DNA from: Candidatus Omnitrophota bacterium
Lineage (GTDB): Bacteria; Omnitrophota; Gorgyraeia; B26-G9
Assembly: GCA_018895275.1 (NCBI GenBank)
Contig: JAHIOQ010000082.1
Location: forward strand, 1 to 46,989
Direction: 5' to 3'
Length of the DNA: 46,989 nucleotides
Notes under the pieces: model-generated
Told to the model about the DNA's origin: nothing
The model's input: the letters and a program-made list of their open reading frames with translations, nothing else
The model's database searches: none
Translations under genes and position numbers: made by a program
In this document: positions 5,070 to 46,700 of the stretch, piece by piece
How positions within the stretch are numbered: the first letter of the stretch is position 1
Layout of the letters: every line of letters begins with the position of its first letter

Positions 5070-5122
5070 CTGAAATTTTCCACTTTATTCAAGGAAAATA
5101 ACCAAAATAAATATCTTGTCCT

Positions 5123-5137: not shown

Positions 5138-5142
5138 GGCTT

Positions 5143-16610: not shown

Positions 16611-16735
16611 CTCTCCATTCAATAAAGAAACCACTACCCCCTGTTTTCTCTCTTCATTACAACCTATTTATTATACCCCACATCCATTGATTTTTACTAA
16701 GGTTTCTTGAGGTTACTTGAAGTTTGCTCCACGTC

Positions 16736-20117: not shown

Positions 20118-20250
20118 AATTATCTTTTCCTAACCTCATTTTTCATCTATCATTTCTCCATCCTGTTTTTATACATAATCGCGGATTTTACTATTTGCCC
20201 AAGAAAAACTCGTTTATCAGGAGGTTTTTGAAAAATAAACAGCGCAAGAA

Positions 20251-20574
20251 TTAGTTAATCCAAATTCCATGCTTCTTTATTTCATTAACAAGAGGGTCAA
20301 TACTTTTGAATTCATTCGGATGATAACCTACAGGTTCAATATGAGGGTCAACTTCTAAAACCTTTTTCCAAAGATAAGATTCATAATGACTTTTATTTTT
20401 CAAAAACCTTTCTGAAATCACGCAAACATCAATATCGCTATACGGTTTTGAATTTCCCTTAGCATAAAAACCAAATAAAATCATTGCTATTACGGGGAAG
20501 TTGTCTTTTTTCAAAATTTCCTTATATTTTAAAAGAATTTTTTTTATATCTTTTAGACTTTTAGAATTTTGCAT
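20251..20574 (-). CDS. Minimal nucleotidyltransferase (MNT), degenerate motif
   Basis: A 107-residue MNT-type nucleotidyltransferase, the usual antitoxin of HEPN toxins. The motif reads LFGFYAKGNSKPYSDIDVCV: both aspartates (47 and 49) are present but the Ser of the GS pair is Phe36, a position normally needed for nucleotide binding. It lies 19 nt downstream of a broken HEPN reading frame, the normal order for this pair. It may be on the way to inactivation, or act without catalysis. No clear ribosome-binding site is seen. Confidence 0.75.
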   Translation of the reverse strand: MQNSKSLKDIKKILLKYKEILKKDNFPVIAMILFGFYAKGNSKPYSDIDVCVISERFLKNKSHYESYLWKKVLEVDPHIEPVGYHPNEFKSIDPLVNEIKKHGIWIN

Positions 20575-20883: not shown

Positions 20884-20930
20884 AGCTATATGAGCTTATG
20901 AACCGTAAGCTATGAGCCATGAGCTAATTC
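20884..20930. repeat. AGCT(N)ATGAGC degenerate repeat
   Basis: Near-tandem units GAGCTATAT, GAGCTTATGAACC, GTAAGCTATGAGCC and ATGAGCTAATT. They are related to the repeat at 7662-7683. The repeat runs into the end of the PilZ gene and supplies the sequence around its stop codon. Confidence 0.5.
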
Positions 20931-21289
20931 ACTGCCTTATAATAACGTTCCACAAAACTATCGACAATCTTTTTATCCTCTTCTTCTTTCCACCAGAAAA
21001 AACTTACACCCATCCGGTATTGTTCGTTCTCCTGATGCGCCCAGGCGATTTTGCCGAATATGCGAATGGTATCAGCGCTTTTGCCCAAGCGGATATCAAC
21101 ACTTAGCGGTGTGCCTTCGGGAATTTTATCCTTTGAATAAATCCCGGCCCCGACCAGGCTGATATCACGCATCTCGCATTCTGTCCCGCTCCAGAATTGA
21201 AACCATACCCGGGGATCCAGCGGGCGCAGGGTTATCCCTACATCACGGGCAACTCTTCTTCTGCATTGCCTTTTTTCCGCGCTTTCCAT
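20924..21289 (-). CDS. PilZ-domain protein, likely c-di-GMP binding
   Basis: A stand-alone PilZ domain of 121 aa. An arginine cluster at residues 7-15 (RQCRRRVAR, satisfying RxxxR) is followed by DISLVGAG (Asp42, Ser44, Gly47), matching the D/NxSxxG motif. Together these are the two c-di-GMP-contact elements of the family. The beta-barrel continues with GTPLSVDIRL, IFGKIAWAHQ and YRMGVSFFW. It has no output domain, so it would act by contacting a partner, often envelope or motility machinery. It lies 52 nt downstream of the S23 gene and two genes from the giant envelope gene. That makes a link to regulating the giant protein possible but unproven. Confidence 0.85.
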   Translation of the reverse strand: MESAEKRQCRRRVARDVGITLRPLDPRVWFQFWSGTECEMRDISLVGAGIYSKDKIPEGTPLSVDIRLGKSADTIRIFGKIAWAHQENEQYRMGVSFFWWKEEEDKKIVDSFVERYYKAVN

Positions 21290-21741: not shown

Positions 21742-22794
21742 TTACGCCGCCATATCAATCAACTCTCTCACATCCACGGGCGCGCCTTGTTTACGCGGTG
21801 AAGGCATTAAACCATCCAGCTTATCCCTGAGCGCGGGATCCGCAGCCGGAGGCGGAGGGGTTTCTTCTTTTGAGGCGGCTGGTTCCTGCGGTGCTATATC
21901 CGCTTTATTTTCGCCCAATTTTATCACGCTGACCGGTTCTTTCACAACCGGAAAACCGCGCGGATTTTCCATATTACCCTGCTGTTTGGTTGCTTCAAAA
22001 ATAGCGTCATACCTGGCCTTAAGCCCGCGGTTGCTCTCGACGGCTTTATCTTTTTCCTGCCCGGCCGTGGATTGTTCCTGATAAGAAGTATCCGCTCCTG
22101 TCCGCGTATCCGCAACCGCACCACCTGGTATTTCAGCCGTTGCCGCTGCGGGTACAATCGGTTCCGATTCGACAACGAGCATTTTTTGCTGTGCATCAAG
22201 TTTTACGGTCAACCCCAATATCGACACCGTGTTGCCGGACTGAAGCTCGCTCGCCAACGATGCCTGCGCATTAATTTGTTCAATGGTTCCTTTTAGCTGC
22301 GCAAATGTCTTATCCTTCAATGCCATTTCTATATTTTCAACGCCTGCGGGACTAACGTCCATAAGAACAAACCGATACCGATTATCTAGTTGTCCGCTTA
22401 TTTCCAGTTCTTCAAGTTTACTGCTGACATTGTGTAATAAATAAAGAAATTTCAACACGGCCTCTTCACGCGTATTTTTCAATAAATTAGAGGCATTAAA
22501 ATCAACATTACTAAGGAAAATTTCAAATTGATTTTTTTCATCAATCCCATTCTGCTCGAGTATTTTTTGAAGAGAAGCTTCCACAACAAGCGCCAATATC
22601 GTCTCCTTAAGTTTAAAATCATCTGCTATAGATATATCACTTTGACTATTTTTATTACCCACAATCAGGAATATTAAACGTTGCATATCCAGTTCCTTAG
22701 GCTTTTCATTAAATTCAATTTCCCTGTCCGGATCATCAGTCAAAATAATCCGTTTATCTTCGTCCTTTAACATCGCCTTTATATCCTTCTCGTT
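21742..22794 (-). other. Giant protein: C-terminal soluble domain and Pro/Ala-rich tail
   Basis: Residues ~8060-8270 follow the last membrane helix and form an alpha/beta-looking domain (RLIFLIVGNKNSQSDI, YRFVLMDVSPAGVENIEMAL, NTVSILGLTVKLD) that I do not recognise. The remaining ~140 residues are rich in Pro, Ala and Gln and look unstructured (PAAATAEIPGGAV, EETPPPPAADP), ending in a short ordered-looking peptide PVDVRELIDMAA. A conserved terminal peptide after a disordered linker could be a docking site. Confidence 0.55.
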
Positions 22795-25700
22795 TCTGGC
22801 AGAAATAAATATCATACCTGAACCTAATGTTATTATAAGCGGGATAAAATATTTATAAATATAATTAATAAACTGAGAAATAAATGAGCCATCCTCACTA
22901 TTAGGAATATAAGCAGAGACAAGTGTTGGCAGCAATATTGACGCAAAAAGAAAAAGTGTTATCATATGTAACTTATGACGTTTAAAAGTGTTGAGTATTC
23001 TTTTAAATAAAGGCATGTCTTGTTGTAATATCCCCTTTTTAAACTTCTCAAATCCTGGCAACAAGAACTGATATAAAGTTGGGCTACGTTCAGAGATTTT
23101 ATAGGTTTCAAAAATTCCATTTAATTTATTTGTTCTTTCTTCGGTACTGCTTTGAGGATAATCTTTAAGCCACGCTTCATAAATGAAACGAATCTGTGCA
23201 AATAAATATTTTCCCTTTGTCTTGATAAGGGTATCTTCAGTATATTTTTCAATCTGCAACTCTAAAATCTCTTTCTCTAAAATTGAAATGTCTTTATTAA
23301 TCTTCCAGAGTTTTCCTCGCCATCTACTTTCCTCTGAACCTTCAAGCCTCTTTAAAAATTCTAAACGTTCTTTTCTCTTCTCACCCCAGAGTGTTAATTT
23401 TTCACTAAACAGGGCAACTAAAACCTCCGGTAACTCTCCACGTTCTTTGCCCCCTTTAATAATTTCATTAAAATACTTAATTTCATTTTCAATTGCTTTA
23501 TCTAAAACTTCATACGGTAAATTTTGTTTTTTCATATCCTGAGAGATGCCCTTGGATAAATTCTTTAATGAAATAATCGAATGCGCAACTACTTTTGGCA
23601 TAGAAATTAAATTAGAGAACAGTCCCCTCATTGAATCTAAATAGTGTTCAAAGAAATTTACCTGTAATAATTTTCTTATCTTTTCTAAATTCTTCTTTGC
23701 CCAGAAATAATTCCCCTGATGGATAAAAACATTTACATCATAAAGCAATGCTCGGATATAGGCGATAGTAGCTTTATCTAATTGTCCATCAGAACCTTTA
23801 AATTTCTGCATTAAATTATTAGTCTCGGAAGTAAGCCTTAATTCTGTCAGTCTGCCTAAAATCAGGCTCAATGTTTTGAAGAGTAGCGCGATACCAATCA
23901 ACGACCCCATAAAACTCACTAATAGTTTCATCGGCAGGGATACCTTATAGAACAAGGCCACCTCAAATACTAAAATGCTGGATAATGGCACGACAAATAA
24001 GAAGAGGAAAGTAAATAAGGATAAAGTAAAAGAACGCAGGTATCTCGAATGCATACGGGCAATCTTCCCCGTGCCTAAGTACTGAGAAATTTCCCAACGG
24101 TCTAAAACCCTCTTTAAAAAATTATGTTTAAACTTTCCGATACGGGAATATTTTGAAGCCCAAATAATAACACCAAGCACTATAGATGTTACCACACTCC
24201 AACCTGTTAACGTAAGAGCAAAAACTCCTGATGAAACAAGCAGAGTAGCCATTGTCAAAATTACAAACCCGGTACTCCAACCTAAAAGTGCTGCCAAAAT
24301 CTCTCCTTTCGTGCTTTCTCCTTTTGGTACATTATTGGAAAAAGGACCAACCATAAGCCCGATACCAAAACCAATAAAAGGTAAAAGCATTAATACGTTT
24401 AACATGTCCAATGTTAGAGCAATTACACTTAAATATGAAAAATATATGAAAGATCCCATAATACGAGCAACTGTCTTTAAATTAACAAAATTGGCATATT
24501 TTCCTAAAGGATTAGTCTCGTCTCCACCTATTGTGGTTCTAAACCGCATATCTACACTCAAAGAATCATTTTTCTGTTCCCCCGATAATATAAATTCCAG
24601 GGTCTGTCTGATAATCTGGGCTATTGCATGAACAACAAGCTGAGACGCAAAAGTAAGTGCATCAATACCTCTATTGTATAACCAGCGGCCTAAACCAATA
24701 ATAAATCCACCCATAAGATACCCGATTATAAACCAACCCGGGGAAAAACCAAATAAAAGCGTAATCATACCACCAACTAAAGCCCAGGATTTATTAAAAC
24801 CTGCTGCTTCCAGATAATGCAGCAATCCATGCAGAGTCAATATCTGGTTAAATATCAAAGAATAATACCAGAAAACCAGTAAAATCCCCACAAACGGAGA
24901 TAGACCGGCAATAATAGCAAAAGGATAAAGAAGAATACCCAGTAATGCCCAGGGAGCAGATGAGAAAAAGCTGCCGGCATTAACACGTGGTTCCTTGGCA
25001 ACTACAGATAATGGGCCAAGCTCACTAATATTCTGCATTGTTTTATCAAACATCTTCTGATGAAGACCACCTGACCATCTGGGATAAGCAGAGTACCAGG
25101 CGGCATGGGAATAACTTTCTCTTTGTTTATTCCACATTGCTCTTGAACGACTGAATTTTGGGGTTATACCCAAACTTACCTTCATCCGTGCTTCCTGCTC
25201 AACAGCCCAGATATCCTCGCTAATTCCTTCAGCATCATGGGTAAAAGCTATCGCCCCAAATAAACGTGCCCAAAAACTCTTAATCAATCCTTGTTGCCGA
25301 TAAACATATGCGCTAAAGGGGTAAATTGGGTAGTTACGGTAGGCGAATCTTTCCAAAACCTTCCATAAAGAAGTGGACTGCATATTGCCCCAACCTGTTC
25401 CGATGCTCTCACCGGCTTTCCCGCCAATAAGCATAATGCCTTTGGTAAAAGAGCGATGTCCGCCTTCAATAAGTTCTGACGCTTTACCTATGTGATATAA
25501 TGTATTTGTAGTCATTCTTCCTGGAACAATAATCACCAAAGATTCATCACTTCGGATACGCTTTAAATCTTTTATAAATAGTTCGAGATCACCCACGGTA
25601 GCATTTCTATCAATGACCAATCGGGAAGTAATCTGCATAAAGGTCTCAGGATCCATCTCCTTACCGGTCATAAACGCGGCTTTAAAACCAAAAGGCGTCC

Positions 25701-28700
25701 AGTCATGGGTTACTCTTGCCTGAATACCAGGAGCAAGTCTCTCCAGTAACCGCGCCAGCAGATAGCGTTGGCCATGTTCTTTACCTTTTGAATAATCGGT
25801 ATTGGAAGGTTTACCTTTGTCATCATCTTTATAATAATTTGAAATAATATTCACCACAATATCTTTGTTATCCATCTGGTTATCAGCGTTTATCGCTAAA
25901 ACCATATCCACTAAATTTGTGCCGGTATCCTCTGACATACCTGCATAAGAACCAATTGCCACCAGATAGGATTTAATTTGAGCAGCAATAAAAAGCTTCT
26001 CTAATTCCTCCTGTGAATCAACGATAATTCTTAAATCATTATCTGCTCCCCAATCTTCTTCCTTACCCCTCAGCATTAGCTGCGAAGGATGAAACAAGGA
26101 AATCTCATTGCTTAATTCAGTTTTATGAAGAAAATCAAACAGCTCTTTTAATTTCGCCATATCACCCTTTATACCAAATGCTTCATTTATAGACCTTACC
26201 CCCCTATCTCCCTTAGACCAAAAATTCTGCCAACGTTTTAATTCTCTTTCCGTAGCCTTATCTACACCTGCGTTAAATACAAAAGACATCAGGGCATCAC
26301 CACCGGCAAACTCAATCAAAGTCTTACCGCCCTTATCCTTATACCTCTTAGCTTTTATCATATCCACCAAAGAAGTAATCCACCCGACAATCTTTTCCTC
26401 AAAAGTTATTAACAACATAATAATTGCCAATAAATAGGGAATAGTTACTCCGAATAAGGTAATTCCAGCGTATAAAAACGGCAGATTAACTTTGGCGATA
26501 TAAAGTATAGCGGTAAACAAACCTACCATTTTGAGCGGGAATGTTACAAGTGAGGCCGCAATGCCGGTCATTCCTACACTTATCGCATATCGCAGTAAAT
26601 ACATATTCAAAAAGAAGAAATAAGAGGCGAAAATAAATTGTAGATTAAGCCCTAATAAGTAGGTGTTGGTAAAAAAGATATTGATAACCGCACCTCCGAT
26701 AAAGGAAGCTAAGAAGAAAAAGCTGGTGTAAAGTAAAGTGTAATATACGATTGCCCCTGCCATACCCCAGAACCCGCCGGAGGGGGTAGACGGCTGGAAG
26801 TGATATCTTAGAGACTGAGCCATAATCGAACCTGGCTGGGATGGTCCGATATTGAGGCTATTTATAAAATTCAAAATCTTCCAACTCCGGCGAGGGTCAT
26901 CTTTTTTAATTTTATTTTTCAACAGGTAATCCTGTAAACCCGTCCCTACTTTCCCGCCAAGTAAGGGAGCAATCATCCCGAAAAGCTCTATAACAGATAC
27001 ACTCATAAAGAGGAGTTTAATCATAAAATGTACCTGAGTTAAAGCCGGTGCAAAGGGAATAAGGACCAAAAGGCCGGCAAAGAAAACGATTCTCCATAAA
27101 AGAGACAATGAATTCCATAATTCAGGATTCCAAAGGAATCCTTTTTTGATATTAATCTTATAGCTGTCCTTTATATTATTATTTTTATAGCGGAGATATC
27201 TTGTGAATTTACTTAATCCGCTAAATAATATAGCTAAACCCAAAATAGTTCCGGCTACCCAGGGTAAATAAGTTAAAGAGAAAAAGAGTTTAACCGTGGA
27301 AACCATATATGAAAGGACCGGCATCCCACCCATGCTTTCATTGAACGAAACAACAATCAGTAAAGCAAGTAAGAATATATGCGGCACAATTCTAACCAGA
27401 TTAATAAACCAGGGCCGGAAAGACAAAAGATCACTGCCTTCTCTTTGCTTAAATTCTCTATATCTGTCCCAAAATCTTTTTACAGACTCAGAACTTATGC
27501 CCAACTCCTCCCAAATCTTCCATTCCTTGGCGTTTAGTCCTTTAATAACAATACTTATCCATTTATCTTCTTTTTTAACCGATACCTTATCCGGCCGTGG
27601 GGTTATTCCGATACTTTTCAGAACCTGAACCATTTTTTCAGAGGTGGCCCCGGGTTTATTTTTCTTGATATCTATCAAAAGATTTCTTACCCGCACAAAC
27701 CCCTCTCCTAAGAACAAATCCAATCTACCTTTGAATTGATTGCTGTCTTCTATATCTTTACCATCTTTATAACCTTCTTTAATAACCCAGCGCAGTGTCA
27801 ATGAGCTGATTAAGGCGAATTCATCCAGACCATTTAGCCACTCATCATCAGACTCCCATAATTTTATTTCGGCTATTTCATTAAGTATCTCATCAAGCGA
27901 ACGTTCTATAATGTCCGGATATTCTTTCCTTACTATCTCCTCTAACTTAGAACGCCGCTGCTCAGGTTCTGGATTTTCTTTAACTAAACGAGCCATACGT
28001 TTTTGGAAATCAGGTTCTTTCTTGATTATTTCATCCAAAACCTCATCCAGTGGTCGTTCAATAAAGTCAGGGTGGTATTGTTTTAACTTCTCTTTAAATT
28101 TTATCCTTAACTCTTCCTCGCTGGAATCCGGACATTCCGCTCTCAGTTTATTCATTTCTGTCTGAACAAATTCTTCCTTTAATACATACTTTCTCCACGC
28201 CCAGATAGCCTGGTAGAGTGCCTTTAGATTAGCCAGAAAGTTACCTTCTACCGGGCCATCAGACAAAATAATCCTTCTTAACGACTCTCCTTCTGCCAAT
28301 CTGATAACTAATTGGGTTATTCTCGGAACTATAGACTCGGTATTCTCTACCCCCGCCTCTTTTAACGCTATATCCACTATCTCTTCTACCTCTGGTGTGG
28401 GCTGCTTTTGTACCGCTTTTGCTTGTACCTTATCCACTAAATTATTAACCACTGAATCTATCTGTACATCCCTAAGCTCCAATCCTTTCAAAATAATATT
28501 TATACCCTGTTTGAAATTATCTATACTCGGCTCTTCCTGAGCACGGTACTGCTCTGGAACTTCAGGGGCAAAAAGTGCATCAACTCTCCTTTTCTCCGCA
28601 TATTTACTCAACTCGTATGCCTTTGCTCCCTCTTTTTCATCCTCTTCCATCACTTTTTTATATCTTGACCTTCCATATCTTAACCAACGCCAAATCCAAC

Positions 28701-31700
28701 TCATCATCTGTGTAATTAACATAAGCATAAAAAATCCGGCTATTATGCTTACAACATTTATCTTGTCCAACGTCCCAATTTCCCATCGTTTGCAGAAATT
28801 AGTATAATCCTGCCATAGTCCCTTATCTTTTTTCTGAGGGACCAGTGTTTCTGTTTCAATATTATTCCGCGGGTAACTCCCTTTATCGTCTATGGATTCT
28901 AACAATCTAACCGTGGTTAACAAATCTAAAGGATAAGTATTATCATCACGTCTCTGAATAACCTCGCCTTTTCTTTGATAAGTCAAAATATACTTTGCTT
29001 GCGATTTCGTATAAATACTTGGCAGGATACCGCCAAATTTTTCTTTTAATTTAAATAGCGAATTCTGGGCCAAAGAAAATGCCTCATTATAACCAATAAG
29101 TTTTGCCACTTTCATAAATAGGAAAGTAAGCCTTGAGGAGATAACCTCTTCTCTCGTAAGTGGCACCCCATAATCTAAACCCCAAATATCATCTATAACC
29201 ACTCCATGTGATTTTGCCAGATTTTCTAACCAGAGTTTTAGTTTGGCGCTTTCATTCGCATCAATAATATCATCCTTATTATAAATACTATACATCATTT
29301 CGATAAACGCCAACCAATCTTCGGTTGAAGTTATAGTCTGCTTGGCTAAGGCTGCGGTATTCGTATTAACCTCCACCACTTCCTTAATACCCTTAGGGAT
29401 AACTCCATTCGAGGTATAGCGTTTTTCAAAAACCTCAATCCATTTTTCCAAATCGGTTAACTGACTATTAACAAAGTCGTTGAAGTTAGTATCTATCCCT
29501 TCTGTCTGCCTTAACATTAGAAGAAGTTTATAGGCTGATAATTGTGTGCTCACATTATAATCTCTAAAACGTGACCACTGCCTAAAACCATCAATAAATA
29601 CCTTATCCGGACGATAGCGGTAATGGGTGATACCATAGTTTAGGTAAACATCCTCATTAGCCTTTTGAGCCTTGGGTTTTATATTAAACAGGCGATAAAA
29701 TAAACTGCGAAGATATTGTCCGACTTTAGTTGCTTGCTCCGGAGAAATCTGTTCTCCATCCAATTGTTTGGGACGGGTATAAAACTTAAAAACTGTCTGG
29801 AGTAAATCTTGAGTAAATCCAAGATACCGTTTATCCCCTGTAGTTTTATAGAGCTCTAAGGAAACCTCGGCTATAGCAAGTTGTACATCACTGGTAGGTT
29901 CACTGTATGCATCCTTTTCAAATCGTACATCCTTTAAAAGAGGTTCACCGGATTGAACATCATAAGAATCACTTAGAGGGTTTTTGCTGTCTAAATAAAA
30001 ACGCCCCAAATAAAAATCAACTGCTTTTTGCGCTTGTTTTACATAGCCTAATCTCAAAAGTTCCTTAATTAATTCTGCTTCCTGAACCGTAGACACATAA
30101 CGTTCATTAATATAATGGGGGATTAACCCCGTGGGAGTAGAAGCCTTAATATTTTTTTCAATTCTATCTTTGGGCAATACAATTGAACCAGCAAAACTTT
30201 CTTTTTTCATTGTCTCCCAGGGCAGTGTATCATTATCGACGAATAATTCTGCGAATAAAGGTAATTTATCAATCTCACGGGCTAACTCATCCGCATTTTC
30301 TATGTTTTTAGTCATCTTTTCACCATTAACCAAGTGGTCATAGGACCATTTAAAAAAGTTAGAATTAATCCTGTTGTTAATATCCAATCTGTCCTTTTTT
30401 ACTACCACCGCATTCTCAAAACCATAAATTACGGTTATCGGCACCTCAAAGGTTATCTCATTGGGATTATACTGATGCCACTCTGGAGACAAAAACCCAA
30501 TAGGCACAGCTCTTACCTCTAAGATGTCTCCTTTGGTTATTACACTGCTAATACGGAAAAACTCACCGTCCTGAGGGGACATTGCATATAATGGTTTGGG
30601 TATATCCGGAAGGGTAGTGTCAATAACCAGCGAATAAGGATAATGAACATCCTTGTCCTTCCGATTATAAATGACTAAAGTTAAATTTTTGTCTTCAAAG
30701 AAGATTTTATATACAGCATCTTCTCTATGTAAAGGAACCTGTTCTGCCCTTTTATATTTTTCTTCTCTTTTATAACTTTCCGTTACGATATATCTATTAT
30801 TACTTTGTTCTTTATTTACATAAGTATTTACTATAACTTCTTCTCTTTCTTTGGTACGTTCTCCACTAGCCTTATCATCCAAAATTATTAAATCTGAAAC
30901 ACCGGCCCAGGTATTATTTGTAGGCTTTTCATATTTAAGCTGAATATCTTTTACATTGGCTATATCCAGACCAGCCCTTTTTAGTGCACTAACCGAAATA
31001 ACAAATATCTCTTTATTTGCCTTATCATTAAAATCAACTTCCACCGTCGTTATGCGGTGAGGTTCTTTATGATAAAATATATTTTCTCTCCTTACCAGCG
31101 GTTCAAAGAAAGATATGGTTTTGGGCTCTGACGTTATATTATTAATGACTCTTACTTGATTACCTTTTTTATCCTTAAACAACACCTCTTTGGGTTTTAT
31201 TCCCTTTGTATAAAAAGCGAGGAAATAGGTATCCGCAAAATTACCTTTCCTGGAAAAAGTAAATTCTGGTTTACCAGTAAGCTCATATCCGGGATAATTA
31301 GCAAAAAATACCTTTGAAGGTGGCAATTTATAAACAAATCTTTTATCCGGCGGTTTTGTAAGTCCGAAAAACTGCTTAAATAAATTTATAAACCCGGTAG
31401 GTTTTTCAAACTTTTGGTCGCATATAACCCAGACATTGCCTTGCGGGTCAAACCAATATTCCGAGGAATATCCTTCTTTCCCATTTTTAAAATGTCTTTC
31501 TACGGTATAAACCCGCCATTCACCAACTCCCAAATTTGGATAATAAGGATTGTGTTTAAAAATATATTTAAGGGTTAAACGCACATCCTTAAAAGCTCCC
31601 CCATCTAATTTTTTAGCTGCTATAACCGTGGGTATTTCACGTAGGTTATCCTTATTTATAGCAATCGCCTGGGCTATCTTTTGATTAGAAAATTTATAAC

Positions 31701-34700
31701 TTCCATCGGCTTGAGGAATGAGATAACCAGGGCTATACTCGTAAGTAATATCTTCAATGGGTTTCATCTCCTTCCTTGTAGCCAAAATACTTTTCTGGTC
31801 ATAGACTGGTTGTTTTTTACTCTCTATTAAACTCAAACTTGTAGATAAAGGTTCTCCTTTTTGACTGCGTATATCTACTGTATTCTTATTCCATATCCCT
31901 GCTCGCAAATCCACATTACGTATCTCTAACTTAGGCTCATCAGAACCCAAAGAACCTTTCGGCAACAAATGATTTTCATGGAATTTAATTACTCCTTTAA
32001 GCTCTCTATTTTTACCGGATTTCTCATCGTATAATTTTGCTTTATATCCTCCTCTATCTGTATACAAACTTACTATGGGTGCTTCAAACGGTTTTTCCAA
32101 GTCAAAATAGGAAATTTCTCTTCCGTTGGTTACTGTAAATGACATTATCCCAGGGGTAAGTGGAATACTGCCTCCTTCCGCCATAAGTATCTTATCACCA
32201 AAAATAGAAACTCTATATTCTTTTACCTTATCATATGGCCCACCCAATAGATTTATATTACCAAATCCTCCTTCTTTCTCCGTGTGAAGATATTTCTCAT
32301 ATACCTTAATGTATCTGTGGTCTTTTGTCATTAAAGTCACTGACCGCGCCATATCGGTTCCGCTAATCCATTCCAAAGGAATAGAAATTTCACCATTGTC
32401 AAAAATGGTATATTGCTGTCTTCCAAAAGGATTATCAGTGATCGGGAAAAACTCCATTCTGCCTGGGCCGAAAGCGGGCTTTACCCTTACTTTTTCTAAA
32501 AATTCTCCTTCCTCTTTGACTTCACCTTCATTCGCATATATCCATCTTGTTTTTCCATTTACTGCGGTAACAGTTTTCTTCCCCCGTTCTGTCCATCCTT
32601 CATAAGAAGTTTTACTTTCTACAGTTATCTCATTGCCAAAAATTGGCTCTTTAAACCGAACTGTTTTATTGATATCTCTTCCTTCCGCATCCTGAATTAT
32701 CCTATAAACGCCATAAGATCTTCCGTTATGATAGAGAGTTACGCGTGAATTACGCTGCTCGTTATTTGGATATTGAAAATCATCGGCAATAGCCGAAAGA
32801 ATATCAAACTTTTTTGTCTTTTCATTCCAAACATACCTTTCTGAGGCAATCACAATACCACTTTTATCGTAGCGGACACGCCGTAACAATTCTTTGCCTA
32901 CCTGGGTATCAATCAATGTGCCAAAAGCGCTTAGGCGGTCTTCTTCGGTTATTTTTCTAATCTGTTTATCAAATCTATACCATCTATCCCTCTTAATCTT
33001 TGTTGTCTTTGCCGTTAAAGAATATTCACCTTTAGTGGTATCCACAATTTCCTCGTCAGATTTCAGTTGTGGGGCAGTTCCATTTTCTACTGCCTTTTGA
33101 ACCTGTTCCAGATATGAGAGAAGATTTTCGATAAATTCTCTTTTTTGTTGTGTATTGAATTTCTTTAGCAACTCCAGATATCCTTCTTCCCGCATCTTCG
33201 CTGAAGCTATGGTTATCCCTTTACTCTCTAACTCATATCTAGAAAATTTATTATTTGATATCCGGCCTTTCTTTATGGTAAGAATAGGATTTTCATAATA
33301 ATGAGACCAAACATAAATCGTCTCCCGTCCGCCTCTTGAATGGTCAATCTTAAGTCCAATTAGCCGGCGGGTCACATTATCATAATCCAGTGTCGAAATT
33401 TCAGCTAAAAGTTTACCGGTATCTTCGCTATAAAATAGTATCTTTTCAGGTATGAATCCATTATAAAATGAGGGATTATATTTAGACTGTATTTTTACAT
33501 TTAATTTCGTAGTCTCACCAAAAATATCCTTAAACTCATCTAAAAAAGTAGACATCATCATTTGACCAAAGTATGAAAGGTCGGAAGTAAGAATTACTTC
33601 TATATCCTTCTTAAGATTAGTGCGGCGTATGGTTAAGTTATGATTTTCAAAATCTCTTTTTATAACCTTTTCCTGCCAGCCAAGTCCACCACGTTTTGGC
33701 TGAGTCAATGTTTTCCCATCGTTATACCAGATTTTTGAATCTACAATATGTCCCAAAGTATCAAAAAAATTGAGTTGACTTTTACCATAGCTACCTTTTG
33801 GGGCTCCTTCTTCACAGGTTATAACCCATTGTGCTTGGCTTAACTCAGGACCAACAAAAACCTCAATTTGGGTATTGTTAAGTGTAGGATTGTGCACTGT
33901 GTAAGCAACCCTTTCCTTTTCCACATCCTGTGAAATAGCCTCGCCTTTAACTAATAAGACACCTTCTTTATTTCTTTTTTCAGTCCAGTTCTCAACATCT
34001 TTTCTCGCCTCCCACTTATCCACAATTCCCACATTGTTATAAAATAGTTCAATAGTATAAGGCATCCCCGTGGAGGATGTCCTTTTGATGAATTTTAAGC
34101 CGATATCTTTCTTGAAGATAAGCCTTTCTTTAACCCCGTCATCGGGGTTAACCCTTTCTCTTTCCCAGTCTCCTGCCGGGAAAATCAACTGCATTCTGAC
34201 CAGTTCCAATTTGCCATCGCCGTCAATATCAAATCTGCCAAAATACATCCAGCCGCGTCTTTGAATCCGCAGCCTTTCCTTCGGAGGAAGTTTTTCTATT
34301 TCATCCGACGCTTTATTAAGCGCCTCTCTGCTGAGGATAAATCCGGGTTTGCCATCTTTCGTACGGAACGGTTTTCCTTCAACTGTGGTTATTCCAATAC
34401 CCCCTGTCCCTGTTACCCTCGCCCGCTCATATAATCCGGCGTATTCGAGCCTTAATCTTAAAAGCGCAATATCCTTGACTTCCTGCTCCTTGTCGGAAAT
34501 CATGGTTACCTTCACACTTCTCTGCAAACCCGCGTCCCAGTAAGAGAAAATATTACGTTCGGTATCATACCAGTCCAGATAATTTGTTCTTTTACTCGGG
34601 ATGATACCTTTTTCTTTTTTGTATAATAATTCAAGTAACAGGTCCTCGCTTTCTTCCAATGCCTCCTTGCCCTTGGCCATTTTTACTGTATATTCACCAT

Positions 34701-37700
34701 CAGTGAGATCTTTCATCATCATCTTTTCTTTATGAGGATTATATAAAAGATCAGGGGTTATGTCTTTTCCGGCAGAATCTCCCCTGATATATTCGCCTTT
34801 TAGCGGATTGTAACCGGCCTTGGCAAAGGCAACCCAGTTCGAAGCCGCGGTACTGCCAAAGTGTTCCGGCACCTTCCAATTTGAGTCTTTAAACAGCGCA
34901 ATCCCGCTTTTTGTCGCCAGGGGATAAACTATTCCCTGTTCCGCTGCCTTAATACCGGCCTTATCCATTTCTTTTATATGTTCATTGTACCGCGCCATCT
35001 CCCACTCAGCTTCTTTTATCCATTTCCTTTGCTCATCCTCGGTTTTGCTCTTTCCGGCCAGGTTTTCAAAATAGCGTGCCATCTCAAGATGCGCCAAGGC
35101 ATCCATAGCTGTAACATCAATAAAACCGGCTGCCTGGCGCTCTCCTCTTCCTTGTTTATTGGTACAGTCATGAAGCGTTACTTCCACTTCTTGCCCATCA
35201 ACCCGTTTTAGTTTATCGCTAACCAATGTTTCTGTTTCTTTATTCCTCCACATTGACAAAAGGTTATCAAACCCGCCAATCTGCTTGGATATTTCCGCGG
35301 GGCCGTCTTTCAATATCCGCAGGCCCAAAACATCCAGAGCAAAAACTCCATCCCTCGCAAACAAGCCGGTTTTTTCCTCCAGACGCGTCCCGCGATTGAA
35401 GGCGTTCTTTTCTTTATCGTAGAGCCCTTCATAGAACCACTTCTTTTGTTTCTCTTTGCGCGTCCGGATTTCTTCTGCCAGTTTTGAATATTTTTTATCC
35501 TTTGCTATTACCTTCTCCAGGTCTTCGGAAAAACTCTCCAGCACGGTATTCTCTTCCCCGGACTGCAGTTCATGATGCCTTTCTTCTGCGCCGCGGATGT
35601 CTTTTCTTTGCGGCGCTTTTATCGCTCCGCCGTTTTCCTTCTGCCGTTCGGCAAGGGCCTTATACATCATAATGGCGGTATCAAGATACTTATCATCTCC
35701 GGTGCTTTTGTAGGCAAGCAGCAGCATTTTACCAAACCAGCTCATCGGCCCGGTGGTAGCGTATAACTCTTTTGCCCGGCCAAAAGATGTTCCGGTATAA
35801 AACATGTCCGCAATGCCTTTAAATGATGAATCCGTGTCATCAAAAATCCAGATGCTCTGGGTATCAACAAGATAGTCGGCGATAGCGAGCAGCCTTGTCT
35901 GATCTTTGGCGAGATTAAAGAGGAATCCGCTTACTGAATTCCCATACAAACTAGCGTCGCCGTGCGGTTCCGGATATCCCTCATCCCCGGGCAGCATAGA
36001 ATACTCTGCAATTGTCCCGCTCATCGGATTCATGCCCCGCGAGGAAAAGTCATAAATATCCTGCAGCGGCGCTTCGCCGTCTTGAGGCGAAAGCTGAGAC
36101 TTAACAATCGGCGCCGGCGACATAGATTCATATGTAATAACCCCGCCCTCTTCTTTCTGCATTTGGGTATGAGACTTATAATTATCAAGGTCGCGCACGG
36201 CTTCTTCTTCCATGTCCTTAAATCCCGTCAATCCGGGGATTATAATCTCTTCTTCAATCTCAACCTTATTGTTTTCCGGATTATAAACCGCGGTACGGGT
36301 TATATATACCGGCCAGGGAATACCCAGGGCGTCAAATTTCAAGTCTCCAATCTGCTGAAGATTTCTTTTTTTATAGGCCTCTTTAGTGTCATATACCCTG
36401 CCGACTCTATCGCCCTTAATCTTTATGCCAATGGCATAATTCGACATCAACTTATCAAGAAATTCACGCGAACGTTCCGGATTGGAAAACTCTCTCCAGC
36501 CAAGCACGTACATCTTTATATCCTTAGCCGAGAATTTTTTTGTGTATGACTTCGCGCTGAACATCTTCTCCAGGGGGCTTGAGATATCAAGGGTCAATCC
36601 AAAAGAAGTAAGTAATCCTTTTAATCCGATTACATCCGCGGTCCGGCCCAGGCCAAGAAATTTCTTGCCGCTTTTATCCGTAATATTAACTATCTCTCCC
36701 ATCAAGGACATAAGATTTACCTCATGGCCGCGGAAGTATTTGAATACCCCTCTTAAAAGCCCATCATCGCCTCGGTCAATACCGGTTGCCTGGGCAATGG
36801 AGTCAAACATATACAGTGCCCATTTAGCGTAGCCGATATATTTTTCATTGTCCAGGTTCGCGTTTAGATATTCATATAGGGCCTTTTCATCGCCTTTATA
36901 TTTCATTGCCCCTTGAATAATCGCGCTGAAGCGCTCATACGCCCCCTCCTTGCCGTACTTTTTCTCAAAATCTTTAAAAAATTCTGAAATATCTTGAAGA
37001 TTAGGAGATTCCGGTATAGCGGATAAGCCAATAAGCAAATTAGACATAACCTCCGCCGCGCCCACTGCCTCCGAGCTGGTAAGAGCGCCGAATATCGGTA
37101 AAATACTCTTATACTTCAGCCATAATTCCTCGCTCCTTATCGACTTTTTCGTATTTTCAATCTTAAACCGGGTGAGCAAATCACCGTATATCATCAATCC
37201 GAGTTTCCTTTCCAGCGCCTGCCGGCCAAAGAATACGCGGTCCCCGGTTTCCGGATTTCCATCTTTTATCGTATCTTTGATGATAAAATATACATCCTTT
37301 AGATCCGGATTTACCTCTTCTAACTTGCCGTTAAAATACTGGTAGGCGCCAATCTCTATTTTTATTTCTTTACCGGTCTTCTCATCTTTTAAATAATTGC
37401 CGTCTTTATCCTTTGGCTGCAGGTATATAATCGGAAAGCCGAGTTCATTCTTTTCCGTAATGCCGTTTTCATAACGGGCCGGAATAATTTCATAGGCTTC
37501 CCAAGCCCTGACCGGCGTATCCCACATACCCGGATATTTGCCTGGGCTCATCTGCGCCGCGTACTGCTCCTTTTCCATTTCTTTTATTTGCGCGTCTATT
37601 GCCTTGCGGTACGCCTCTTTTTTATCGATCTTCTGCTCCAGGAGTTTATCGCTGAATACAATCCTGTACTCCTCGCCGGTTTTTGGATTCACGATCCAGG

Positions 37701-40700
37701 CCTGATACGATATGCCGTTTTTGTCGTTGTATTTTATCTGGGCCGGCGACAAATCGCTTCCTTTTCCATCCGGAGTAGGTTTCTCAAGCATCGAAATCTC
37801 ACCGCGCAGCTTCATTATCCAGCCTTCAGCCTTAAGATAGGCCTTTAATTCCTTCTCCGTCTTAAAATACAAATATTTTCCCTGTCTTTCTAACACCTCA
37901 TAGCGCCGGCCTTTTTCCCAATTAACAATAGCCAAGGCAATGCCCTCATCATTCAATTTATGGCGCAAAGCATCCAGCCTTGTTCCCGCCTGCACCTGCT
38001 GCATGGCTTTCTCAAAAAGCGGCTGGAGGCTGATAGTGGCAATACCATTGACATATTCCACTGGTATGATATTTTTATCCGCTATGCTTTCTTCGTCCCA
38101 GTCTTTGGGCTTATTTTTTTCTTTCCAGCTCTGAATCGCTTTTTCGACATCCTGATTCAATTCATCCCGGTTCTTGCTAAGGTGTTTATTATAAACCGGA
38201 TTCTGCCGCTGCCATTCTTTTAAACCGTCAATTTTCTTTTGAATCTGTTTCTGATGGCCTTCATTCCTGGCCTTGCCTTCGGCAAGAGAACTAAATAAGC
38301 CTAAATAGCTGTCAATTATGTTATTAATGATATCCTCCGCGAATATCTCCGCGATCACCCCGGATGTATGTCCGCTCAATACCCTGTATTTAAACACATC
38401 GTTACCGACAACCGTAATAATTGCTTCTTTTACATAATAAGGGGTGTTATCATCATCATCGAGGATATTTGAAATATGTTCATAGAGCAGTAAAAGTTTC
38501 TCCGCGGCAAACTTTTTAATAACCACCGGAGAACTTTTCTCGTTAAACCCCTGCTCTATTATTCCGGGGTATAACTCTAACACTTCTTTATAGCCTTCAA
38601 TAATCTCCTGGATTAACTCTTTCTTATCCCCATCAACCGCGTTTTTAACCGAATCCCAGAACCTGAAAAAGGCCTCTTTGTCTTTGGTTAAAGCCTCTGC
38701 CTGAACGCGCTCTAGATTTGACACCTTATTCTTATCCTTTTCGTTTATGCTTATAAGATTTAATGTGTCCGGAAGCTCAGCCCTTAAATTAGTCAATTCC
38801 GCGTGACCTTCCTGAACGGACTTCTCAAGGTCAAGGCCTTTTCCGACAAAACGATATGCCAATTTCAGATTTTCAAAATTAGCCAGATAGTCTCTCATAT
38901 TATCAAGATAGGCATTACGATATGAATTAACTTTATCAAAAGAAGCGATTACCTCTTCTTTGGATATCTGCTTCTGCCGATATTGCCGGCTCTTTGCCAG
39001 GTAATCTTCATAATAACTCATAAACGCCTCTTGGCTTGCCTCGAGACGTTCTTTGAATACCGATTGTTTTTCCCATAACAGTTGTATTCTTTGAGCATTA
39101 TTTGCCAGCTCTTTTTCTCTTTTAAATTCGTCAATTACCATCGAATAAAGAGGCCCTCTTATATCCCGCGCGATGGCATTGATATCCGGAGTTTCATAGT
39201 ATTTGCCTATGGCTGCGTCGTCTATACCGCGGGCTTTATCTTCAATATAACCGACAAGCGTCCGCTCTCTGCCCTGACCCAGCGCCCTCATTTTATTTTT
39301 GATTATTATTGCCGCGTCATTAACCCTTGCCTCAAACACTTTTATTTGCGGAAGATTACCCACCGCGCCCTTGAACGTAAGCATCAACTTTTCTTTATCC
39401 GCCTCGTTATAATCTTTTAATCCTATGGAAAGTTTATCCAGGTCTTCTATCTTCAATTTCACTTGAGCTGGAATACCGGCCATTACCTTAAGCCGGGCTT
39501 CAATCTGAGCCTTGCGCTGCTCAATGGCCGGGCTTGGGAGCATGCTGCTTAATTCATTAATCCAGGCAAGTTCCGTGATTAAATTCAAAACTTCCGCCTC
39601 TTTCTCGGCAAACTTTGCCTCGAAAAGACGCTTGGCGGCATCTTTCTCTAAAGCCATTCTTCGGGACGGTTCCGTGTAAATAATCTTTTCTTGGGGAAGA
39701 AGTTCAAGCGCGCCAATGCCTTTATTTCCATCAAAGATATAGGCAGTATCTTGATATGAACGAGTAGGAGAGGTTGTGCGGTCAATCCCTTCTGTGGCTA
39801 AACCCGGATGGAGATAATTAAGATACGCTCCAAAAACATCATCACTATTTTTAATCGCCTCGGTTACAAGGCCGGCAATACTTGTATCCACTTGTTTTTT
39901 ATCTAAAGTCGGGGACCCTCTTGTTTTATTTATATCTGAATCATCTTTGGTTCTAATACCCAAAGATTCGGCATTAACGCGGCTAGCGACGACAGCATAA
40001 TAATCGCCATACTGTTGGTCTGAATTCAGGTCTGCCCGCGCCTTTGCCTTTTCATTTTGAGCGGAACTGCGTTGAAGCGATAATAGAGCTTTCTTTTTAT
40101 CTATCGCCAGCTCAAACTCTCTAATCCGTTCTTCTTTCTTCATGGCCTTGGTATCAGAGAAAAACTCACCTATTAAATTTATGGCCCTCAGTCCGGCCCA
40201 CCATAAAATTGGCCCGGGATTACCGGTAGCGGCCATAACCATCTCAGAAAGCGGGATATCGACTTTAAATTCTCCGCCGTTCTTTACCAGATTCAACTGA
40301 CTGTTTAAAATTTCTATCTCGGCTTTAGTTACCTCTTGCTCAAATTTACTTTTATCAAAATTTTCTCTCAGCATCCCTTCTATCTCTGACTCTATCTTCT
40401 CTAACGGCACATTTATCTCAATCTCAGCGCCAGCCGGCATGTCCAGCAGATAGTTAAGCGCGGCTTTTTTCGCTTCCAAATTTTCTTTAGCTCTAAGTTT
40501 ATGCACTATAGCCGAAGGATAACTCCGCTCATCTATTTTCTCTAAAGAATCATCCAGCTTTTTAGCGTAAAGATAATCAATCTGAGCCAGCAAAAATCTG
40601 GCTTTTAACTCTCCTGTGACTAAATTAAGTTTCGCCTCTTCACTCAGTTTTTCAAATTCCCGAATCTCTTTATCATTGTTTTGGCCAAAGGTAAGCGCTA

Positions 40701-43700
40701 ATCCCACGGTTAAACTCGGTTTGCCTTTGGTAATCCCGGGCCCAAGTTCCAAATCAGCTTTTTTTACCCCTAATAATTTTGCCAGCCAGCTTGACCCCTT
40801 ATCCAAAGACATCCGTGCCCGCACCGTATCCAGCTTCCTTTGAGCCTCGTTATAAGTAAAATCCGCAGGGGCGACTCTCTGGTTATAGGTCTTAGATGGA
40901 TCATTGATTACCGTTTTTCCCGCTTGAGATTTCGGGGATTTTTCCGGTTCGGCTTTGCTATTTTTAAGCAGCGCCTCGTAGTAAGCCCTTTCCGTTTCCA
41001 GTTCCGACTTATATTCGACAATGGATAATATCGCGTCATTTTTCTCTATTATTGCCAGCAGCGCCTCATCCATATTTTTCCAGATCTTCCATTCTTTAGC
41101 TTCTTTTTCATTATTAAACGCCTGAATGCTATTAGCCAGATCATCCCGCATCCTTTGTTCGGTTTTACTTAAGCTGTTTATCAACTCAGTCTTTAGACTA
41201 ATCATTTCCGGGATAATCTCTATGATATGTTTTGCCTGGCGCAGGTATTCGATTTCTTCCGCTTTTAAAGCGCCTTTCTCTGCCTTTACTTCGATGTTTT
41301 CGTTGTCGGATTTATTATCCGCGTCATAGAGAGTAATTGGGATACTCAGGCGCAAGCCCGCGTCTTTACTTTGAAGAACAATATCAGTGGGGCTAAAACC
41401 AAATGCAACCCGTTTAATCCCGCTCTTTTTAAATAACTTCGCGATTATTCCGTCTTCTTTAATTTCACCGCTTATTTTCATCTCATCCATTAAAGACAGC
41501 CAATATTTGCGCATGTTATCTGTCTGAGAGCTGACAATATCCATCGCCTTTGGGTCTTTAAAATCCGGGATTCCATCAATTATTTTTTTCATATCTTCAC
41601 CATCCGGATTAATATGCGTCAGCGCGGCAAACATAGCCTTTTTAATCCTAAACTCACCTTCTAAATCAACCATCTGGGAATTCAAGTCTTTCTTGGCCTG
41701 AGAGCTTTCCGAAGCGCTCAGATCCAATTCCATTTTTGCCTTTTCATACGCCCATTTTGCCTTAACCATTTCCAGATATGATTTGGTGGTCATATTTATC
41801 GACTCTTTTACCATCAGTCTTGTCTCATGCAGCGCTCTGTTTAATTTAACAACCGCTAAAGCCGCATCCCCCTCGCCGACATTCTCCAGGCCGAATTCCA
41901 TCCCCAAATCAAACGGAAACCGCTGCTCCAATTCGCGGGTAACATTACCCGTATCTACAGACACCCCATACCATGCATTATAAAAAGCAACCACCTTCGG
42001 CATGTTATTTCCGATATCCTTTATGGCCTTAATAAGCCGCTCATTAAATTCCGTGTTATTCGCCAATACCGGTAAAAATGCCCGGGTAAGCGGATCCGGC
42101 GCCTTTTTATACTTTTCCTTCATCGTGTCATTTATTTTTTCTAAAAATTTTACTTCATCACCTATTGCTTGAGATATAACCTCCTCTCCGCTAATAGACC
42201 GCCTTGCCCCAAAACCAACTTCTGTTTGAGCACTGCTATAACGTTTTCCAACTTCAGCAAAGATATCTACTCCAAACACTTCTTTCGAAATTTTACCTAA
42301 CCAGGTATATGTACTTCCTTCCAGGCTGCCCTTTAATTCAACATCTATCCCCGCCGGTAACTTTGTCTTAAGCTCAACATCAACACCCTTGGTTTTCTCA
42401 CCCATTGTGCCTTCGACTTTTCCCTCGATCACTCCCCCGATTCTAAACCCCAGTTGTGCCCCCGCGGAGGTTTGATTATACCCTTCACTATTGTCTTCCC
42501 GCTGAATAAACAACTGCAACGTAAGCGCGTCTTTATCTTGCTCCTTATCTTTCTTCTTCACTAATTTGAGTAAGTCTATTTCCGCTCCGATTCTCTCAAA
42601 CAAATAATGCATCTTCGCCCCTTCTACCAATGCCGTATAGAGAGGGCTTAATCCTTCTTTGTCCAATTCCTTATCTCCATGCTGCCAGGAGAAATCCTGT
42701 TGATACGCGTCCTTTAACCAGCCTCCGGAAACCTGTCCTATCAATTTAAATGCCGGGCTGAGCTTATACTCAGCAATCACGGTTCCGTCAATGCTTGAGT
42801 AATCCTTGCTAAACTTAAAATCCGCGGGGACATCCAAAGAAAGGCTGGCTCCGATAAACGCCTTATGTTCCCCTTCTTTTTCCGGGTCAGGGAATAACAC
42901 CATGGTATAATCCTGGGTAATTATTAATCTATACCTTTGTTCTTCCGCCCGCTCCTGAAACTCTATCTGCTCCGCAGTAGGCTCAACTGCCCTGCCTCTG
43001 TCTTTAAACTTTATGGCCGGATAAATCTGCTTACTTAAATCAACTGTTAACGCGTAATATACCGGTATATTCTCCGGGTTGACCAATACCTCCAGGCCTC
43101 CGCCATACGCCCCCCGTTCAGGGTCATCCCTTTTAATGTAATAAATAAACGGGCTTACCGTAACCCCTTTATCTTTAAACGAACCGAAAAAATTAACCCA
43201 TTTTAAATATGCCTCCCGGGACTCGCCGAAACTCATATGGGTAACAATATAATAATCGCCGCCTAAATCAAACTGCTCCGCGAGCAATCCTAATTTTTCC
43301 AGAACATCCATCGGTTTATCCAACGAAGCGCCTTTCAACGTTTCCACCAGCTCCCGCGGCCGGTTAGGATCGCTTAGTATTCTCTTAACAAATTTTTCTA
43401 ACGAGTTCTTATCCAGAACCATGGAAAGATTATCTTGTTTTTGCGTATCGAGCTCGGCAATAGCAATATCTTCAGCGCCCAATTCTCTTAATCTCTCCAC
43501 CTCTTTTTTAACCTGTTCTCTCGCGTCGGTTATTTTCGTATCCTGAAACAGCGCCCTGGCTTTGGCATGAATAAAATCGTATAATGCCTTAATCTTCTCT
43601 TCCTGAGTCTTACGTTTTCTATCCCATATATTGCCATCCTTATCGTTTAATTTTTTCAGCCAACCTTCAACCTCTTCTATCTTCTCGTTAATTTCCCTGA

Positions 43701-46700
43701 TAATATCAGAGCTTTCTTCTAATTGCTTATCAAGTAACGCCGCTCTATCATTATAATTATTTATTAAATTTTGTGTATTTTCTTCCATATCTGGAAATAT
43801 CGTATTCAATAAAGTCTTTCCATCTTTTTCAGCCTTTTTCAAATAAATCACTTTTTTATCCGCGTAATCCTCGGACAATTTATAATATTCTAATTCTTTC
43901 CCTATTAATTTTATGTTTCTATCAACAATCTCCACATCAGTTTCACTGGAAGTTCCGTTAATAATCTCCAAATTTTTATTGATGGAATCTATCTCCATAT
44001 CCACAAGGCCGGTCTTTCCTTCTTTTCCGAGGAGAGTTTCAATCGCAGCTTTTTCAGCTAAGAATACATCTTTTAGCAATGGAAGCGTATCTATATACAT
44101 ATTTGCTTTTTCAATTCTAATCTCAGCGTCTTTTATATAAATATCCAGTTCCGCTATCTTAAGCTGCCAACTCGCTATGAGGCCATTATCTCTTTTATCT
44201 TCAGGCTTTTTGTTCTCGTCTTCTATTCTCTGTTCATAAACAGCCTTCTTAGCCTCTGTCTCTTTTTTTGCTTTTTCCGCGGAAATATAATTACCGGAAC
44301 TGTTTTTTTCTGTACAATCTGGATCAATAACTTTTTTTTGATATTGTATCCTCTTGTCGATAGAAACAGGTATTCCCTCCTCTTTAAAGAGATTATCCGG
44401 GTGGCCCACATCCAATGTAGCTTCATTTGTCGGGTCAAGATAAGCCTGAATTTCAGAAAGGCGTTTTTCAGCTTTAGCTTCTTCCCCCGGCCAATATTTA
44501 ATTCCAGCGCTCAATAAAGAACTTTGAAGATCAAACATCTTCTTTAACACAATTTTTGTATCAGTATAATAATCTTCCTCCGCTTTTGCCTTAACTTTCT
44601 TTCTCTCTAAAATGGATAAAAATGCCTCCCCGCTACCCTCATGAAGCTCTGAATCCTTTTTTAAATCGTCAATCATCATTCGCGCAAATGGGATCTTTTT
44701 ATTCAAATTTTTTATTTGTAACTTAATCACTTCCTTTTCCTCATCAGTCAGATTAGACGATTCTAATCTCTTAGTAAGAGCCGTAATGTCCTTTTCCGCC
44801 AGCGCTATCTGTTCTGTCCAGTACTCAATTCCAGGCTGAATTTTACTTGGCTCCAGAATAAATGGATCGATACCCGGATAATTCTTTGGCGAACTTCCAA
44901 TCTCATTTAATCTTTTTACATCTTTTGTTGCTTGTTCAATTTTCTTATCATTGTTTTGAATGTCAGACTTAGTTATTATCCCCAAGAGTCTATTAATATC
45001 TACCTTTTCTCCAGCTTTCAAAGCTTTTTGCGCTTCTTGCCAATTTTTTAAATTATCTTCTGTATCTTTGAGTTTATTTTTTGCATAATCAATCTCCTTT
45101 TTTGCTTCTTCCAGTTGTTCTGTAAGCTTTCCAATAGCATCTTTAAGCGCAGCGGCATTATCACCTATCTGTCTCAGAGAATCATTAAACCCTGGCATTT
45201 GCCCTGTTAACGCTTCTTTTGAATTTTCTATATATTGTTTTAAGGTTTCTTGATATTTAAGATCCGCCTTTACCAATTTTTCCAGTTGCAGCTTTAGCTT
45301 TGCCACTGTGGCTTTATCAATATCCGCCTTTCTCTGCTCTATGAAAAATTTGGCGCTTTGGATAATTACCAATAGCCGCGCATATTCTCTGTCGCGGTTA
45401 TCTTTTGCCTGTTTTACATTATTATATCTTGCCAGCGCCTGTCTTAATGTCTCTTTAGCCGCGTTTATTTGTTGTTCTTTAGCTGTATCCAATTTTTTAG
45501 TTTTTATCTCTTCTTCGGCTTTTTTCGGCTTCTCACTGAGCATCTCATTGACTTTGCCCCTTACTGCTTTTGTAACTTCGGACCTACCAAGTTGATTCAG
45601 TATACTGCTTCTCTCCCCGGGAACGGCTAATTTGCCTGGCTTTTCTTGAGTTTTCGGCAGCGATTTTTCTATAACTCTTTTAGATAGATTATTTGGATTA
45701 ACATTAACAATATTTCCCGTCATCTTCTTCTCCCAAAATTCAGCAGGGGTCTTAAAATTTCCCTTGATAATTTCCAGATGAAGCTGCGGCCGGCCTCCAT
45801 TTTCTTTGTTAACGTTAATCGCGTTACCGGTTTTGCCCACGGTTCCAATAGTAGTGTTAGTTGAAACAGTATCTCCTGCTTTCACCAAATTATCGCGATT
45901 ATGCGCGTATAAAGAATAATAGCCGTTTCCATGGTCAATAATGACATATTTGCCGTACCCATTACTTTTGCCATTTTTACTTTCTTCTCCAACATCAAAA
46001 ACCTTACCTGCCTTTATCGCATAGATAGGGGTTCCTTCCTCGGCGTGATAATCAACGCCCAGATGAGGCGGCTCATCCTTAGTTCCGTTTTCATTATTTC
46101 TATTTCTTCCCGCGCCAAATTGTCCTTCATCAGGAATATGGTAGGCGGTTCTAATCGGTGATGAAACCTGAGATAGTTCTTCTGGTGGTGGGGTACCGCC
46201 TGCTCCTGTAGTCTGTCCTGCCGGCCAAGAATCATCAACCCGCGGATCCGATTCTTCCGTTCCCGGCTGTTCTTCTTTCTGCGGCAGGGGATCATTCTTT
46301 AAAACTTCCTGCATCCAGATTAATAATTGTAAACTCTTTTTAAGCTCAGCAATCTTTATCTCAAGTTTCGCGATATAAAAAGAAACTCCTTTTTTTGACG
46401 CGGCCAGCTTTTCTTTTTCCTTATTAAGATCTTTTGCCGAAAGCGCGGAATTTATTTCGGTAAGCTGCTGTTCTATCTTTTTAGCCTCTTCTTTCTCTTG
46501 ATTAGTAGCTTTTTCTTTTATTTTTTCAAGTATGTAATTTTGCTGGGCTAATATAAGCTCCGTCAACTTCGACCGCGCGGTTATCTTTTCTAGCTCTGTT
46601 TTTGCTTGAGCCGCTTTCTCCCGAGCCTGTTTTATTCTTGAGGCGAACTTATTCTCGGCATCGGGAGCATATCTTTTTATGGCCGAGGAAAACTCACTGT

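Follow-up and report, generated by a model that had tools for sequence, protein, structure and literature searches.

A GT48-like membrane synthase and two toroid domains in one giant Omnitrophota open reading frame

Giant open reading frames (ORFs) are known from Omnitrophota, one of 39,678 amino acids (aa) occurring in Velamenicoccus LiM. They have "few annotated domains", and coat, adhesion or degradation roles have been proposed for them (PMC10066038), with their roles described as poorly understood there and in a second study (PMC11573180). The question raised by the locus described here is what kind of enzyme, if any, is built into the membrane part of such a protein. The window analyzed was a whole contig (JAHIOQ010000082.1 of assembly GCA_018895275.1, 46,989 nucleotides) from an Omnitrophota-class genome, and one ORF fills more than half of it.

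21742..46989, minus strand: giant ORF of 8,410 aa or more, an open frame that runs off the contig at its 5' end

The ORF has 8,415 stop-free codons, or 8,410 counted from the first ATG. As the contig end cuts the 5' end the true N-terminus was not seen and the length is a lower bound. Residue r of the ORF corresponds to plus-strand coordinate 46989-3(r-1), and our residue numbers are the count used in an earlier reading of this DNA from its letters (the original prediction) plus 5. That reading had proposed a permuted and duplicated NdvB/ChvB-type cyclic glucan synthase, with parts in the order toroid, beta-rich stretch, toroid, membrane glycosyltransferase (GT). Our analysis instead suggests that the protein is probably a GT48-type (FKS/callose synthase) membrane polysaccharide synthase of a divergent bacterial branch, fused to extracytoplasmic glycan-handling domains.

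To assess the membrane GT domain we used an AlphaFold2 model of residues 6600-7640 (pLDDT 74, pTM 0.79). In it residues 6886-7477 take the fold of a GT-A synthase embedded in the membrane, with the core, residues 6886-7277, held between transmembrane (TM) helices. The original prediction would have been undone by a placement of residues 6880-7320 outside the GT-A fold, and this region does fold as GT-A. Significant Foldseek matches to the model were all membrane GT-A synthases. When the predicted model was compared by VIA-align, yeast Fks1 ranked first of 997 chains (Z 18.4, 517 residues, 3.9 A), the next kinds of protein being a mannosyltransferase (Z 14.4), BcsA (Z 13.9) and hyaluronan synthase (13.4). 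The 50 listed entries of this ranking do not include the cyclic glucan synthase Cgs (8RF0), which weighs neither way for GT84. Fks1 is a GT48 enzyme in which a DAN motif replaces DxD, an ED motif is present and the GT domain is inserted between TM6 and TM7 (PMC12715860). The positions of the window domain that can be set beside these motifs were as follows.

25159..26334, minus strand: GT-A catalytic core, residues 6886-7277, GT48-like by fold and profile link; this segment is relocated in G240 and G131:C8
25681..25683, minus strand: K7103, invariant, proposed equivalent of Fks1 K1082
25603..25611, minus strand: D7127-R-N7129, aligned with GT48 D-x-N (Fks1 D1102-A-N1104) in place of DxD
25213..25218, minus strand: E7258-D7259, invariant, aligned with the Fks1 ED motif E1221-D1222
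25117..25128, minus strand: K7288-x-R7290-E7291, aligned with bacterial GT48 K-x-R-E (K-x-R-D in Fks1)
25075..25080, minus strand: R7304-W7305, invariant, like the "RW" of GT2 and aligned with K-F of GT48

In an alignment of 24 sequences (A2), whose members share 22-37% identity with the window, K7103, D7127, E7258, D7259, R7290, R7304 and W7305 were invariant. Two of the three motifs picked out by the original prediction, "ISEDIW" and "PRWSGG", are thus conserved (S-E-D and R-W in 24/24) and the third, "ADNQMD", is found in the window only. "ADNQMD" was also considered as the DxD motif and rejected because both of its Asp residues occur in the window alone, the real DxD equivalent being D7127-R-N7129. 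The "THD" of "THDAEG" was rejected as the catalytic base as its His-Asp is not conserved.

The link to GT48 was then measured by profile comparison. Aligning A2 to 17 bacterial GT48 sequences with hhalign gave E 4.6e-6 (probability 86.5, 361 columns, score 64), and in this alignment D-x-N, E-D, K-x-R-E and R-W/K-F line up. A reversed control scored 20.9 and the best of 20 block-shuffles 26.2. Reciprocal sequence-profile matches between the window family and GT48 were 5.7e-6 and 6e-5. Against two sets of Omnitrophota GT2 membrane enzymes (5 and 16 sequences) the window family scored 19-22, equal to control level. Bacterial GT48 itself matches the same local GT2 enzymes (97%), so the comparison is able to detect GT2 kinship.

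These scores bear on the alternative that the domain is a generic GT2 membrane polymerase, similar to cellulose or hyaluronan synthase, and that its likeness to GT48 is one of shared fold only. BcsA and hyaluronan synthase do have the same membrane GT-A processive fold (Z 11-14) and the R-W motif invariant in the window family, and by Foldseek alone hyaluronan and cellulose synthases led the matches. However, the window family showed no profile similarity to the local GT2 enzymes, has D-x-N in place of DxD, shares K-x-R-E with GT48 and gave a structural score to Fks1 well above that to BcsA. We therefore consider a generic GT2 enzyme unlikely. Several observations weigh against the GT48 assignment we prefer. 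Fks1 was not among the top 50 matches listed by Foldseek, K7103 lies two columns off Fks1 K1082 in the hhalign alignment, N7129 is retained in only 18/24 relatives and the invariant R-W motif is GT2-like. In addition, no Pfam model, PF02364 (the GT48 family) included, matched the window GT domain or the other 18 relatives scanned, and a PDB profile search with the window-family alignment found no GT. As the PDB search found no GT the GT48 link is remote, but by sequence profile it is specific. As the PF02364 test fails the domain is not filed as a GT48 member, although it is GT48-like by fold and motifs. Like Fks and callose synthase it has its GT-A core set into a bundle of helices and shows DxN for DxD, ED and KxRE/D, with Fks1 as its best fold match and a profile link that runs through bacterial PF02364 domains. 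Unlike them it is PF02364-negative, has the GT2-like R-W and shares a giant bacterial chain with extracytoplasmic toroids. Rho1, which regulates Fks in fungi, is not expected in bacteria.

Because Fks1 was the best fold match we searched the class for PF02364. Matches over the curated cut-off were found in 20/292 class genomes (best E 2.6e-80) and in 0/14 control genomes, and the whole source genome of the window contained no match over the cut-off. The bacterial PF02364 domains make up loci L112-L161. One Omnitrophota domain matched yeast Fks1 at 6.1e-41 by phmmer (Fks1 808-1302), and the 17-sequence bacterial GT48 profile matched Gsc2 (Fks2) at 3.2e-90 and cellulose synthase at 2.8e-6. When 84,980 species genomes were scanned by pattern with alignment A4, a closer subset of the divergent alignment A3, 20 GT48 loci were returned: 17 from Omnitrophota (named lineages among them), 2 from Elusimicrobiota and 1 from a metagenome-assembled genome (MAG) labelled Planctomycetales. 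The Proruminimicrobium and Endomicrobium loci are those that we take to be Elusimicrobiota from the genus names. Nine of the 20 loci were checked, including both from Elusimicrobiota and the Planctomycetales-labelled MAG, and all lie in uninterrupted bacterial frames. To our knowledge GT48 beta-1,3-glucan synthases have been known only from eukaryotes. A literature search of limited coverage found no report joining Omnitrophota with glucan synthase and none of bacterial GT48.

Relatives of the window synthase itself were detected in 20/384 phylum genomes by sequence search and in 24/384 class genomes by profile search. A first contig scan with the single window protein found no relative. Nearly all of the relatives sit inside long or giant ORFs of up to 70,450 codons. 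The open frames holding relatives on G144:C2 and G034:C1 have 70,450 and 45,379 codons.

The domains that precede the synthase in the chain were evaluated next.

34798..35967, minus strand: toroid 1, residues 3675-4064, (alpha/alpha)6 family, with invariant S3810-x-E3812-x-N3814
31801..34797, minus strand: beta-rich stretch, residues 4065-5063, of no family (composition only; no Pfam match)
30373..31800, minus strand: conserved beta-rich block, residues 5064-5539, immediately N-terminal to toroid 2, from its profile
28933..30294, minus strand: toroid 2, residues 5566-6019, (alpha/alpha)6 barrel, from the fold match of the AlphaFold part

A toroid-1 profile built from 11 relatives matched cellobiose 2-epimerase (2.8e-9) and a GH76 mannanase (3.8e-6) in the PDB, these matches spanning only part of the barrel, and the copy of toroid 1 in locus L122 exceeds the Pfam GH76 cut-off. 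Stand-alone relatives of toroid 1 also exist. The second giant ORF of the same genome (L109, G000:C153) is collinear with residues 2180-4432, toroid 1 included. For toroid 2 an AlphaFold model of residues 5060-6120 was poor as a whole (pLDDT 51) and usable for the toroid only, which reached pLDDT 75-90 in stretches; it was too poor to name the fold of the beta block. The toroid-2 model matched GlcNAc 2-epimerase (Z 22.3) and a bacterial glucoamylase (Z 21.8). Toroids 1 and 2 are homologous (hhalign 96.3%, E 1.6e-9). Both are general (alpha/alpha)6 barrels and neither points specifically to GH94 or GH144. The toroid fold is common to the barrels of AGE/cellobiose 2-epimerase and GH76. Toroid 1 has family invariants of its own (S-x-E-x-N and two Asp) and is a putative enzyme only. 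GH76 was considered as its activity on the strength of the sequence match and was set aside, limiting the claim to the fold. The beta-block profile (5064-5539) matches the same place in L092-L096 and L098-L100. Half of alignment row L097, apparently a wrong-sense frame, was trimmed before structure prediction.

The side of the membrane on which these domains lie was assessed by topology prediction.

28699..28755, minus strand: first TM helix seen, at residues 6079-6097, with 6 K/R and 0 D/E after it, an outside-to-inside crossing
27430..28692, minus strand: linker domain, residues 6100-6520, predicted to be cytoplasmic and conserved in part where it adjoins the GT (6346-6474)
26374..27399, minus strand: TM bundle before the GT core, residues 6531-6872, from model and topology prediction
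23845..24969, minus strand: TM bundle after the GT core, residues 7341-7715, including the shared NQILT/SQAIT helix
22804..23832, minus strand: helical region at the C terminus, residues 7720-8062, with the final two TM helices and a weak EzrA-like coiled coil

Topology prediction showed no TM helix upstream of residue 6079 in the window ORF. L122 has six K/R ahead of its N-terminal helix and eight K/R just past the helix that comes after the beta region. Because of this positive-inside pattern of flanking charges in the window and L122, both proteins are predicted to have their toroids and beta-rich domains outside and their GT core on the inner side of the membrane.

A profile map of about 50 frames was used to determine whether this plan recurs. 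The beta block, toroid 2 and the GT were found together in eight other long ORFs, and in G252 toroid 1 was also present with these three. The original prediction had the order of the domains right for the window, as it had their union in one larger chain (all lie in a single ORF), and the same order is seen again in G252. In the same map a recognized GT48 domain occurred with toroid 1 in the 3,090-3,129-codon ORFs of L122-L125 and in L126, L127, L136 and L137. The small relatives with a toroid-1 homologue and PF02364 are complete ORFs of 3,090-3,129 aa, and G008 has the same pair in a longer ORF. As toroid and GT are shared by the window family and the recognized-GT48 ORFs, a toroid followed by a membrane GT48-like synthase is a recurring plan, of which the window is a larger and more divergent version.

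These data allowed the NdvB/ChvB reading to be weighed. NdvB and Cgs do have the same kinds of parts as the window, a GT2-like membrane synthase and toroids in one chain, and a beta-1,2-glucanase (5z06) was tenth in the toroid-2 Foldseek list. However, GH94 was absent from the Pfam and NCBIfam matches of the window and from the Pfam matches of the ten aligned sequences, and PF10091 (GH144-like cyclase) matched nothing in the window or the whole genome, and on these matches an NdvB/GH94/PF10091 identity was rejected. Among the families compared the synthase is closest to GT48, and the toroids are closest to 2-epimerases and GH76. The order of the parts is the opposite of that in NdvB/Cgs and relatives carry a recognized GT48 in the same arrangement as the window. 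The soluble domains of Cgs all lie in the cytoplasm (PMC10901819), and the window toroids are predicted on the opposite side of the membrane. A rearranged cyclic glucan synthase of this type is therefore disfavored and we regard it as highly improbable. Of the duplication that formed part of this proposal, an internal duplication of the toroid was found; a duplicated glucan synthase was not.

A different rearrangement was found within the family. Two relatives, G240:C51 and G131:C8, lack the counterpart of residues 6894-7277 at its place in the membrane domain and carry it behind that domain.

L107 residues 3178-3572 and L108 residues 3216-3607 (frame residues; G240:C51 and G131:C8): relocated GT cores, ED kept

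The ED motif is kept in both moved cores and DRN in that of G131. In both proteins the membrane half has retained the RE...RW part. A tree of the post-core region grouped G240 with G131 (97/89), next to G299, in which the order of the parts is the usual one. A tree of the core neither contradicts nor shows a single origin, and the relocation was likely one derived event. The move of the GT core is thus a real rearrangement in this family, although not the one first proposed.

The retained residues also bear on whether the domain is still an enzyme. A catalytically dead synthase fold could serve as membrane anchor or scaffold for a giant surface or adhesion protein, in keeping with the coat or adhesin role proposed for giant Omnitrophota ORFs (PMC10066038), and the window has D3958 at an acidic position of toroid 1 where almost every relative has E. 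Against this, the K, D, E, D and R of the GT core are invariant in the 24 diverse sequences and ED persists even in the relocated cores, making a dead synthase very unlikely. As a GT48-type synthase, the cytoplasmic GT-A core would take a sugar nucleotide, most likely UDP-glucose, with D7127/N7129 and K7103 handling the donor and D7259 acting as catalytic base. The growing chain, presumably beta-1,3-linked, would pass through a channel formed by the helices flanking the GT core and, on emerging at the outer face, may be bound, trimmed or modified by the toroids and beta-rich domains that the protein itself carries.

In the giant ORF as a whole, Pfam and NCBIfam recognized a single domain from sequence alone.

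45760..46068, minus strand: M23 peptidase domain, residues 308-410, PF01551 E 8.8e-25

C-terminal to it residues 420-2700 contain long helical stretches, and a piece at about 1290-1660 looked by eye like a possible outer-membrane-like barrel. A phmmer search of residues 3421-8415 against the PDB gave no match. The window ORF resembles the Velamenicoccus LiM giant ORFs in coming from Omnitrophota, in its giant length and in its many TM helices, and differs from what earlier work on giant ORFs described in that a synthase was identified in it. Two genes after the giant ORF lies a gene for PilZ, a cyclic di-GMP (c-di-GMP) receptor (20924-21289), and the stand-alone toroid-1 relatives L079 and L087 bear an N-terminal PilZ. 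Together the PilZ gene and the PilZ-toroid proteins make c-di-GMP control of the synthase/toroid system possible. Elsewhere in the window a type I restriction-modification cluster (10882-16634) contains unusual fusions, HsdM with DUF559 and HsdS with DUF1016/YhcG. It also has a YhcG nuclease on its own, and of HsdR only a piece from the C terminus is present. At 19263-20574 a nucleotidyltransferase and a HepT-like RNase are fused in one ORF (MNT/HepT-like), with a second nucleotidyltransferase ORF adjoining.

Taken as a whole the data make it plausible that Omnitrophota and some Elusimicrobiota own GT48 branches housed in giant envelope proteins, in which glucan would be made at the inner face and processed by extracytoplasmic toroids of the same chain, one lineage having moved the core behind the membrane domain while keeping ED. 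The giant proteins of Omnitrophota rank with the largest known, and a synthase with intact catalytic positions gives this one a testable function to replace "coat or adhesin". The relocated core amounts to a natural test of which links within a membrane synthase can be dispensed with. Bacterial GT48 domains bear on the origin of the fungal and plant beta-1,3-glucan synthases, and the relatives of about 3,100 aa offer small bacterial proteins, related to an antifungal drug target, for biochemistry.

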